Assembly: GCF_024464185.1 (NCBI RefSeq)
Contig: NZ_JANHAU010000003.1
Location: 1-64,000 of the forward strand
Source of the DNA: Haloarchaeobius salinus
GTDB lineage: Archaea > Halobacteriota > Halobacteria > Halobacteriales > Natrialbaceae
Direction of reading: 5' to 3'
DNA: 64,000 nucleotides
Of the stretch, positions 31,954 through 42,006 are shown piece by piece. A program made the position numbers and the translations under genes. The notes below the pieces were generated by a model. That model worked only from the letters and a program-made list of their open reading frames with translations, was not told where the DNA came from and did no database searches. Positions within the stretch are counted from its first letter, which is position 1; each line of letters begins with the position of its first letter.

Positions 31954-33804
31954 ATGCTCGGGGGGCTCCCGATCACCACACTGTACCAGATGGTACTCGT
32001 CGCCACGACGGGACTGGCGTTCGTCGTCGCCGGTGTGGCCTGGCGGAACCGGCCCAACACCGGTGCCCGCTACCTCGCGCTGACCGCACTCGGTGCGGCC
32101 GCCTGGACCGCACCGTCGCTCGCCCAGAGTCTGACCCCCTCGCTGTTCGTCGACGAGCTGTTCAGTCGGCTCGCGTACATCGGTGTCACCCTCGTCCCGC
32201 CGTCCTGGTTCCTGCTGGCGGCCGAGTACACGGGACACGACAGACTCCACGACCGGCGGGTCCGGACGGGGCTCTGGAGCGTCTCGGCCGTGATGGTTGT
32301 CGTCGCCTGGTCGGGACTCGTCTTCGACCACGGACTCGTCTACAGCCGGGTCTTCGAGGACCCGGGGACGCTGACCGGCATCGGGGTCGATCACGGAGCT
32401 GTGTTCTACCTCTGGACCCTCTACGCCTACGGCCTCGTCTTCGGGGCACTCTCGATGTTCGTCGGGTTCTTCTACCGGTCGACCGACCTCTACCGGCGGC
32501 AGGCCGCGGTGGTCGTCCTGGCCGCGCTCGCGCCGCTGGTCGGGAACCTGCTCTACGTGACCGAGACCATCGCCGTAGACGGGACACCGTTCGGGTTCGC
32601 CCTCGGGAGCGCGGCGCTCGCCTTCGGCGTGTTCGAGTTCAGCCTGACCGACGTGACACCCATCGCCCGCGAGTCGCTGATGACGAACATCAGGGACGGC
32701 GTCGTCGTCCTCGACGCCGAAGGTCGCATCACGGACGTGAACCCGGCGGCCAGCCGACTGCTCGGGCTGGATGGCTCCGTCATCGGACGGCGGGTGAGCA
32801 CCGTCCTCGACGGCCCCGTCGGCGACATCGCGGCGGACGTCGGGGACCGCGAGACCCAGACCCTCGTCACGCTCGACTCCGCCAGCGGCCGTCGGTACGT
32901 CGACGTCCGGGTGTGGCCGCAGTCCGACGACCGCGGCCGCTCGCTCGGGCACCTGTTCTACCTCCGCGACGTGACCGAACGCGAGCACAGGGAGCGCGAG
33001 CTGGAGCGACAGAACGAGCGGCTCGACCGTTTCGCGAGCCTCGTCAGTCACGACCTGCGCAACCCGCTGTCGGTCGCCGAGGGCTACGTCGAACTCGCCC
33101 AGGACACCGACGACGTCTCCCACCTCGACGACGTCGTCGTCGCCCACGAGCGGATGGAGGAACTCATCGAGGACGTGCTCGCGATGGCCCGCGAGGGCGA
33201 GACGGTCACGGACCTGGAGGCGGTCCGCATCGAGGAGGTCGCCCGGGCGGCCTGGGCCACCGTGGAGACCAACGGTGCGACGCTCGAGGTCCGGACCGAC
33301 GGGACCGTCCGTGCGGCACCCACCCGACTGCGACGACTGTTCGAGAACCTGTTCCGGAACGCCGTGGAACACGGTTCCACGAGCCCCCGCTCGCACGCTC
33401 GCGGGGACGCCGTCGAGCACGGCTCGACGAGCCCTCGTTCGACTCCGTCTCACGAGGACGCCGTGGAACACGGTTCCACGAGCCCCCGCTCGCACGCTCC
33501 CCGGGACACCGTCGAGCACGGCCCAAACGGGGCGACAGCCGAGCTGACCGTCATCGTCGGCGACCTGGCCGACTCCATCGACGACGGGCCGGCCGGGTTC
33601 TACGTGGCAGACGACGGTATCGGCATCCCGGCCGACAGCCGCGCGGACGTCCTGGACGACGGGTACACCACGAACGAGGACGGCACCGGGCTGGGGCTCT
33701 CTGTCGTCCAGTCCATCGCCGACGCGCACGGCTGGACGGTGCGGGTTACGGAGGGCGACTCCGGCGGTGCCCGGTTCGAGTTCGCCGGCGCTGTCGTGGA
33801 CTGA
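31954..33804 (+). CDS. Membrane sensor histidine kinase (7TM-PAS-HisKA-HATPase) with N-box repeats
   Basis: A 616-aa kinase. Residues 1 to about 215 form seven membrane helices of the kind found at the N-terminus of haloarchaeal histidine kinases; a PAS domain follows (about 235-345, GVVVLDAEGRITDVNPAA), then HisKA with phospho-acceptor H366 in SLVSHDLRNPL, and a HATPase domain with YVADDGIGIP and GTGLGLSVVQ. The N-box (FENLFRNAVEHG) is followed by an in-frame array of VEHGSTSPRS-type repeats, residues about 470-523, listed separately. The ATG at 31954 is 27-29 nt after an ATCTAAGT box. No response regulator gene is adjacent. The signal is unknown; it may be light, redox or a lipid-borne ligand. 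Confidence 0.9.
   Translation: MLGGLPITTLYQMVLVATTGLAFVVAGVAWRNRPNTGARYLALTALGAAAWTAPSLAQSLTPSLFVDELFSRLAYIGVTLVPPSWFLLAAEYTGHDRLHDRRVRTGLWSVSAVMVVVAWSGLVFDHGLVYSRVFEDPGTLTGIGVDHGAVFYLWTLYAYGLVFGALSMFVGFFYRSTDLYRRQAAVVVLAALAPLVGNLLYVTETIAVDGTPFGFALGSAALAFGVFEFSLTDVTPIARESLMTNIRDGVVVLDAEGRITDVNPAASRLLGLDGSVIGRRVSTVLDGPVGDIAADVGDRETQTLVTLDSASGRRYVDVRVWPQSDDRGRSLGHLFYLRDVTEREHRERELERQNERLDRFASLVSHDLRNPLSVAEGYVELAQDTDDVSHLDDVVVAHERMEELIEDVLAMAREGETVTDLEAVRIEEVARAAWATVETNGATLEVRTDGTVRAAPTRLRRLFENLFRNAVEHGSTSPRSHARGDAVEHGSTSPRSTPSHEDAVEHGSTSPRSHAPRDTVEHGPNGATAELTVIVGDLADSIDDGPAGFYVADDGIGIPADSRADVLDDGYTTNEDGTGLGLSVVQSIADAHGWTVRVTEGDSGGARFEFAGAVVD
33361..33522 (+). repeat. In-frame palindromic repeat array inside a kinase gene
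   Basis: Three full copies (33361-33408, 33409-33459, 33460-33507; 48, 51 and 48 bp) and a partial fourth (33508-33522) encode AVEHGSTSPRS-like units. Copies 1 and 3 match at 46 of 48 bases. Each full copy has a perfect 7-bp palindrome with loop CACGG: CGTGGAA/TTCCACG in copies 1 and 3, CGTCGAG/CTCGACG in copy 2. The two arm changes in copy 2 are matched by two in the other arm, and all four are synonymous. The fourth copy has lost the right arm. All lengths are multiples of three, so the kinase frame is kept. Confidence 0.9.
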
Positions 33805-40723: not shown

Positions 40724-41938
40724 ATGGAGTACCACGACCCGGACGTCGGACGGGAGGTCGCCGAGCGCGCCCGCGAGTTCGTCGAGCAGGAGGTCATCCC
40801 CGTCGAGCGGGAGTGGCTGGGCAGCGATTCCGTCCCCGACTCGGTCGTCGACGACCTGCGCGAGACCGCCCGCGAGTACGAGGTGTACGGCCCGCAGATA
40901 CCGGCGGAGTACGGTGGACTGGGGCTGGACTTCCGTGCGATGCTCCCCGTCTTCGAGGAGGCCGGCCGGAGCCTGCTCGGCGGGCTCGCGATGCGCTGTG
41001 CCGCCCCCGACGAGGGGAACATGCACACCCTCGAGATCGTCGGCACCGACGCACAACAGGAGCGCTGGCTCGCGCCGCTCGCTGCCGGCGAGATCAACTC
41101 GGGGTTCTGCATGACCGAGCCGATGCAGGGCGGCGGCTCGGACCCGAAGATGCTCAGTACCGAGGCGCGCAAGGACGGCGACGAGTGGGTCATCGACGGC
41201 CACAAGTGGTGGACGACCGGCGGCGCAGACGCCGACGTCTTCCTCGTCATGGCCCGCACGGACCCCGACGCCCACCCCTACGAGGGTGCGAGCATCATCC
41301 TCGTGCCCCGGGAGACCGACGGCGTCGAGGTCGTCCGCGACATCCCGCACATGGGCGGCGAGCCCGTCGGCTCCAGCCACTCGGAGGTCAAATTCGACGG
41401 CGCACGCGTCCCCGTCGAGAACACGCTCGGTCCGGAGAACGCCGGTTTCGCGGTCGCCCAGCGCAGACTCGGCCCCGCGAGACTCACACACTGCATGCGA
41501 TTCGGCGGGATGGCGGACCGTGCGCTCGACATCGCGACCGCCTACGCCAGCGAGCGGGAGGCCTTCGGCGAACCCATCGCGGAGAAGCAGGCGCTCCGGT
41601 TCCGCGTCGCCCGCCAGCGCACCCGACTGCACGCCGCGCGGACGATGATCCGGCACGCGGCCGACGACATCGCGGCCGGCGAAGAGGCCCGCATCGGTGT
41701 CGCCATGGCGAAGGTGTTCACCGCGAACGTCGTCCAGGACGCCATCGACGAGTCGGTGCAGATCTGCGGCGGCAACGGCATCGGGAAGGACCTGCCGCTC
41801 GCGGACTTCTACGAGAACGTCCGCGCGTTCCGCATCATCGACGGCGCGGACGAGGTCCACCTGCGCAGCATCGCCCGCGAGGCGTTCGCCGAGCCGAAGC
41901 TGGACGAACTGGAGAACGTCACCCGGTTCGGGCAGTAG
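40724..41938 (+). CDS. Acyl-CoA dehydrogenase
   Basis: A 404-aa flavoenzyme that makes trans-2-enoyl-CoA in fatty or branched acid breakdown. Motifs: FCMTEPMQGGGSDP and HKWWTTGGADADVF (FAD binding), GPARLTHCMRFGG and QICGGNGIGKDLPL, and a C-terminal RIIDGADEVHLRSIAR. It resembles the ACAD10/11 branch, whose partner is an APH-type kinase; here that kinase is a separate, divergent gene. A GTTTTTCAC box lies 27 nt before the ATG. The stop codon (41936-41938) lies in the first unit of a 23-bp tandem repeat. The 164-bp upstream gap holds the two promoters. Confidence 0.94.
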   Translation: MEYHDPDVGREVAERAREFVEQEVIPVEREWLGSDSVPDSVVDDLRETAREYEVYGPQIPAEYGGLGLDFRAMLPVFEEAGRSLLGGLAMRCAAPDEGNMHTLEIVGTDAQQERWLAPLAAGEINSGFCMTEPMQGGGSDPKMLSTEARKDGDEWVIDGHKWWTTGGADADVFLVMARTDPDAHPYEGASIILVPRETDGVEVVRDIPHMGGEPVGSSHSEVKFDGARVPVENTLGPENAGFAVAQRRLGPARLTHCMRFGGMADRALDIATAYASEREAFGEPIAEKQALRFRVARQRTRLHAARTMIRHAADDIAAGEEARIGVAMAKVFTANVVQDAIDESVQICGGNGIGKDLPLADFYENVRAFRIIDGADEVHLRSIAREAFAEPKLDELENVTRFGQ

Positions 41939-42006
41939 AACGCCACCACCTCGGGCAGTAGAACGCCACCACCTCGGGCAGTAGAACGCCACCGCCTCGG
42001 GCAGTA
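41928..42006. repeat. 23-bp tandem repeat with repeated TAG stop
   Basis: Units beginning TCGGGCAGTAGAACGCCACC start at 41928, 41951, 41974 and 41997 (a partial copy): three full copies plus about ten bases, with one base different in the third. Each full unit has a TAG. Since 23 is not a multiple of three, successive TAGs fall in different frames. The array covers the end of the acyl-CoA dehydrogenase and reaches the convergent kinase stop at 42014. The only other DNA in the gap is about eight bases. Confidence 0.92.

Follow-up and report, generated by a model that had tools for sequence, protein, structure and literature searches.

A probably mobile double-hairpin DNA element recurs in haloarchaeal genomes and at the N-box of sensor kinases

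The repeat array inside a haloarchaeal sensor histidine kinase gene probably represents a short mobile DNA element of two adjacent hairpins, which is tolerated within proteins and for which the kinase N-box would be a hot spot, as judged by sequence comparison. The dispersal of copies, the existence of empty sites, the occurrence in both orientations, the insertion of whole codons, the covariation of the hairpin arms and a rule relating neighboring copies were observed directly and support this reading. The element is about 45–58 bp long and has the layout RCC-hp1-(G)AGCC-hp2-GGAC, where hp1 and hp2 are the two hairpins.

An array of double hairpins follows the N-box of a sensor kinase

Within the window (the whole 64,000-nucleotide stretch of DNA that was analyzed), inspection of the sequence places the array immediately 3' of the codons for the N-box FRNAVEHG, as units of 48, 51 and 48 bp followed by a terminal VEHG (Table 1). 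The original prediction had described these three full units, each with a perfect 7-bp palindrome around the loop CACGG, and had noted that each arm of unit 2 departs at two bases from those of units 1 and 3, by changes that are both compensating and synonymous; all of this was borne out, and the array proved larger than described. The palindrome is hp1, formed by the VEHGST codons, and each unit also contains hp2 (SPxSxxxxD), a second hairpin that the prediction had missed. It had further taken the last segment for a fourth copy that lost its right arm, which was wrong: arrays of differing length in relatives typically finish in bare VEHG, so this segment is the native end of the N-box.

Table 1. 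Coordinates of the kinase gene and of the array units and hairpins in the window
Feature	Position	Strand	Remarks
Membrane sensor histidine kinase gene, 646 aa	31864..33804	+	ORF uninterrupted through array; Pfam HisKA_7TM, PAS, HisKA, HATPase_c
Unit 1, AVEHGSTSPRSHARGD, 48 bp	33361..33408	+	Covariance model 76 bits; all pairs intact
Unit 1 hp1	33363-33369/33375-33381	+	Intact
Unit 1 hp2, CCCCGC..GCGGGG	33385-33390/33401-33406	+	Intact
Unit 2, AVEHGSTSPRSTPSHED, 51 bp	33409..33459	+	Covariance model 59.6 bits; intact, stems differ
Unit 2 hp1	33411-33417/33423-33429	+	Intact
Unit 2 hp2, CCTCGT..ACGAGG	33433-33438/33452-33457	+	Intact
Unit 3, AVEHGSTSPRSHAPRD, 48 bp	33460..33507	+	Covariance model 60.6 bits
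Unit 3 hp1	33462-33468/33474-33480	+	Intact
Unit 3 hp2	33484-33489/33500-33505	+	Damaged, 4/6 pairs
Terminal TVEHG, ACC GTC GAG CAC GGC	33508..33522	+	Native N-box end; lacks hp1 right arm

AlphaFold2, applied to the kinase core with 34 relatives, gave pLDDT values mostly above 90 for the catalytic core and of about 44–50, with no secondary structure, for the insert (approximately residues 117–167), which is thus predicted to loop out in disordered form after the N-box helix and before the strand that follows. Elsewhere in the window, 3.4 copies of a 23-bp unit (TCGGGCAGTAGAACGCCACCACC) lie at 41928–42006 with 98% identity; the period of this repeat is not a multiple of three.

The arms of both hairpins covary

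We ranked every possible pair of columns across 108 distinct 48-nt kinase units, and the seven highest ranks went to the variable stem pairs of hp1 and hp2, which are seven in number. In these units, 97.3% of stem cells were paired and the covariation score was 0.526, compared with 0.161 after shuffling and 0.03–0.10 after sliding; the result was reproduced with 150 distinct units, all such counts being uncorrected for phylogeny and hence not independent of it. The original prediction had suggested that the DNA or RNA hairpin, and not just the peptide, is kept or copied, and had named covariation in excess of shuffled controls as a check. That excess exists, and because it holds in the 108 to 150 distinct units gathered from relatives, the pattern in the array is not a product of chance.

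At the wobble bases of hp1, which are free at the protein level and where pair changes are synonymous, Watson-Crick pairing was found in 146 of 172 cases for A:T (110 expected), 149 of 172 for V:S (74 expected) and 149 of 172 for E:G (87 expected), and control pairings of the same codons gave no comparable covariation. The hp1 covariation recurs in many genera, where four different V codons and two for E take part in it. Covariation of hp2 proceeds through non-synonymous changes (PR, PD, PA, PG, PP and others), each with a matching partner, and units of 15 and 17 residues have quite different stems in which complementarity is retained. Because the paired halves change together even where the protein is indifferent, the DNA fold itself appears to be maintained. 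Selection for a Ser/Thr-rich loop peptide, with codon choice imitating covariation, would be in keeping with the strong conservation of VEHGST and with the location of the insert in the same kinase loop; it is made extremely improbable by the synonymous V:S and E:G wobble pairs, which covary where same-codon controls do not, and by hp2 residues that vary widely while complementarity is kept.

The strong stem covariation could also reflect regulatory mRNA structures of the kinase genes that are selected for RNA folding, and the mutual distinctness of neighboring hairpins, as if cross-pairing were avoided, would suit such structures. However, G.U cells (23 versus 111 expected) were depleted at least as much as A.C cells (52 versus 143 expected) among the 150 distinct units, and because G.U is not favored over A.C, the constraint looks to act on DNA rather than on an RNA helix of the coding strand. 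Copies that are intergenic, antisense or within unrelated enzymes, together with the many kinases that have no units, also argue against a role in the mRNA, which we consider very unlikely.

Units are widespread in haloarchaeal kinases and turn over rapidly

Two further kinases of the same genome have an insertion at this position; one carries a single unit and the other carries three. The longest kinase arrays parsed contain seven full units, and many kinases are without any. A protein query gave hits in 221 of the 391 Halobacteria genomes; among the weaker hits, some may represent the N-box only. The VEHGSTSPRS strings that the original prediction mentioned for other haloarchaeal kinases were recovered in relatives, and matches in many other haloarchaeal genomes show that the repeat is not confined to one strain. 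When 84,980 bacterial and archaeal genomes were scanned, all 80 loci kept were haloarchaeal; a covariance model matched 33 of 295 genomes in a phylum sample, all of them Halobacteriales, and gave no match outside Halobacteriales among these 295. A search of viral contigs and phages returned no match, plasmid matches were limited to haloarchaeal megaplasmids (including CbiE, MBL-fold and PglZ genes), and no Rfam family reached its gathering score, the only hit being Atu_L6 at 17.6 bits versus 100.

A sister species has an orthologue of the window's kinase that is 85% identical at the protein level; in place of the three units it contains a single decayed one, pointing to rapid turnover of copy number. 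In a two-unit kinase of genome G319 (L013/L041), the reading frame downstream of the array breaks and gives an Arg-rich tail; this locus is probably a frameshifted pseudogene.

Copies outside kinases are intergenic or inserted in unrelated genes

Whether matches always fall at the kinase N-box was also checked, and they do not. Eleven further copies in the window's own genome were read as an intergenic repeat with the layout hp1-GAGCC-hp2-GAC; they reach only 31–36 bits with the covariance model, which was trained on kinase units. Intergenic double-hairpin families with other stems occur in G389, G274 and other genomes, and the element is found in both orientations. At the base preceding the element, which is absent from the model, 51 of the 52 non-kinase copies have a C, and GCC or ACC comes next after 31 of the 52. 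Coding and intergenic copies are tied together by L404, a 505-aa protein whose in-frame coding copy has an hp1 stem of the intergenic type. The idea that the element was seeded from the N-box itself did not gain support and is only one possibility: the same double hairpin occurs between genes, where its hp1 stems are different, as well as within unrelated genes, and may equally have reached the N-box from elsewhere. The flanks of the own-genome intergenic copies (L112, L115, L123 and others) are also rich in further hairpins that have perfect stems and very short loops, for example CCGGAAATC-AGA-GATTTCCGG and TCACGAAACGC-AA-GCGTTTCGTGA, which suggests that perfect palindromes are generally over-represented between the genes of haloarchaea.

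Empty sites were found by comparison with homologues. One LeuRS carries an in-frame 51-bp insert (TVEHSSTSHADADASAD) in its editing domain that the other aligned homologues lack, and an acyl-CoA dehydrogenase (the L187/L307 site) has an in-frame 51-bp insert (TAEQRSTSPDPPEADKD) that is likewise absent from the others in the alignment. A second acyl-CoA dehydrogenase (L308, genome G131), which stood outside this alignment, has a 51-bp insert (RAEQSSAGSARPEATQN) at the same site, with stems that differ yet pair (GCCGAGC-AAA-GCTCGGC; TCTGCG..CGCAGA); it was either inherited with co-evolved stems or inserted independently. In CbiE, 5 loci (two identical) have a 48-bp insert and 20 others have none, and the gene is annotated as CbiE in Natronococcus occultus. 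An antisense-oriented copy in PurA appears as a gap relative to a solved homologue structure. The copies in Kae1 and MenB sit between aligned blocks, which makes them likely, rather than demonstrated, insertions of the element. On haloarchaeal megaplasmids, copies lie in genes for an MBL-fold hydrolase and a PglZ protein.

Comparison of the LeuRS, acyl-CoA dehydrogenase and other insertions revealed no consistent target-site duplication: flanks in CbiE and at the N-box resemble the left arm of the element, and LeuRS and acyl-CoA dehydrogenase have no clear duplication. For the kinases, target-site duplication was considered and rejected, the left-arm VE codons matching those of the next copy in 50 cases versus 44.6 by chance; CbiE suggests otherwise. 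At the CbiE loci L435, L374 and L431, the left arm of the element uses the same synonymous codons as the native copy that follows it, the opposite of the neighbor rule seen in kinases.

Neighboring copies in kinase arrays are mostly identical or differ at both wobbles

Adjacent kinase copies, including a unit compared with the terminal VEHG, mostly agree at both the V and the E wobble or differ at both: both differed in 109 cases versus 58 expected, and only one in 42 versus 98 expected. After arrays were collapsed by upstream identity, the first pairs differed at both wobbles in 61 cases versus 30 expected. Copies with one other copy between them are often identical (53 versus 17 expected), which duplication of two-unit blocks explains, but such duplication does not explain the single-unit case. 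Instability of direct repeats as the sole cause of the difference between neighbors was ruled out, as the loop wobble H3, which belongs to the same repeat and lies outside the stems, is not over-diverged (26 versus 34.5 expected). In our reading, neighboring hairpins avoid cross-pairing, and their strict difference offers a new clue to the mechanism.

Comparison with known palindromic elements

REP and REPIN sequences are short dispersed palindromes, arranged as paired hairpins, that are mobilized by RAYT, lie mainly outside genes and carry GTAG or CGTC feet. The haloarchaeal element resembles them in its short dispersed palindromes and paired hairpins; a GTAG or CGTC foot was sought in the flanks and ends of 52 copies and in the unit sequences, and none was found. 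Fungal mitochondria contain elements in which two adjacent hairpins form the mobile unit; compared by description, these share the two adjacent hairpins with the haloarchaeal element and differ in being mitochondrial and mostly non-coding.

The palindromic elements of Rickettsia, reportedly described by Ogata in 2000, are palindromic repeats that lie in frame within unrelated genes, many of them housekeeping genes whose proteins tolerate the insertion, and that also occur in DNA between genes (PMC10969869, PMC6649704). They are about 150 bp long, and their arms are reported to lose identity over time. The original prediction of a protein-tolerated palindromic element comparable in behavior is supported by in-frame insertions that are absent from homologues (LeuRS, acyl-CoA dehydrogenase, CbiE and PurA) and by copies in non-coding DNA. 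In contrast to the elements of Rickettsia, the haloarchaeal unit is 45–58 bp long and has two hairpins whose complementarity is kept by covariation, it has one dominant kinase site with tandem arrays, and its hosts are archaea, the 80 kept loci all being Halobacteria and the phylum matches all Halobacteriales. It works like the Rickettsia palindromic elements but is not a member of that group, since size, architecture and host differ. Nematomorph mitochondria have coding inverted repeats with arms of up to 142 bp whose identity is actively maintained (PMC6649704); those arms derive from the gene's own conserved sequence, whereas the haloarchaeal element is a small inserted unit that recurs.

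A description of the element was sought in the openly licensed literature and none was found; nor did this literature yield a paper on the VEHGSTSP string or on archaeal coding palindromes. In the literature searchable here, reports of mobile palindromes inside functional genes concern mainly Rickettsia. An archaeal counterpart that is widespread, varied and present in some species but absent from others would allow the spread of DNA hairpins, the upkeep of complementarity between paired arms and the accommodation of added peptides by proteins such as LeuRS and sensor kinases to be studied in haloarchaea that are amenable to genetics. It also serves as a warning that some of the length variation of haloarchaeal kinases and enzymes is inserted DNA, not protein innovation.

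Possible routes of spread

In the mechanism that we propose, the DNA hairpins would be what is recognized or copied during spread, so that elements with broken hairpins would drop out. Insertion would occur between C and RCC. Within genes, copies would survive where the encoded peptide is short, hydrophilic and disordered and lies in a surface loop, and tandem duplication and exchange among paralogous kinases would then enlarge the arrays. The N-box would be a hot spot because AAC GCC GTS GAR CAC GG resembles the 5' end of the element and precedes a tolerant loop; resemblance to the left end may thus explain the preference, and GAC GCC GTC GAG CG in CbiE would be a second site of this kind. 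It is possible, if doubtful, that the element represents a new class of hairpin-dependent mobile DNA, whose 5' arm matches the N-box codons and so leads to repeated insertion, and whose neighboring copies need mutually non-pairing stems, different at both wobbles, for the hairpins to fold and be copied independently.

Template switching, or quasi-palindrome correction, might instead make and keep the palindromes, which would spread by tandem duplication and gene conversion with no dedicated mobility. Near-identical units show 108 both-arm changes, compared with about 8 by chance placement (our estimate), the left arm in CbiE often agrees in its codons with the native copy that follows, and this mechanism has been proposed for the coding palindromes of nematomorphs (PMC6649704). 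However, single-arm changes are common too (155), and template switching alone does not account for clean insertions into unrelated genes in which linker, loop and ends are the same. We retain it only as a tentative alternative to a mobile double-hairpin element, and it may add to the arm identity of that element.

A special case of the mobile element would be a terminal-only PATE, an IS200/IS605-type transposon reduced to its end hairpins and moved in trans as single-stranded DNA by a Y1 transposase. The PATEs of Haloquadratum are transposase-free, with near-terminal palindromes and no target duplication, and include possibly mobile, terminal-only forms of 52 bp (PMC3119063); these 52-bp forms make the comparison attractive. 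The element described here is likewise haloarchaeal and transposase-free, and its two hairpins, which fill a unit of about 50 bp, the lack of consistent duplication, the constant GAC end and the C before the element would all fit. By contrast, tandem in-frame coding arrays do not figure in the passages on PATEs that were consulted, and TnpB elements were rejected as a source of the element, the ends and 3' flanks of 21 TnpB loci in three genomes failing to match it (best E 1.1); we regard descent from a PATE as unlikely. At L429, the right-end stem 3' of the TnpB ORF contains an hp1-like hairpin (GAGAGAGCACAGCTCTCTC), which is perhaps a related element inserted in the TnpB element.
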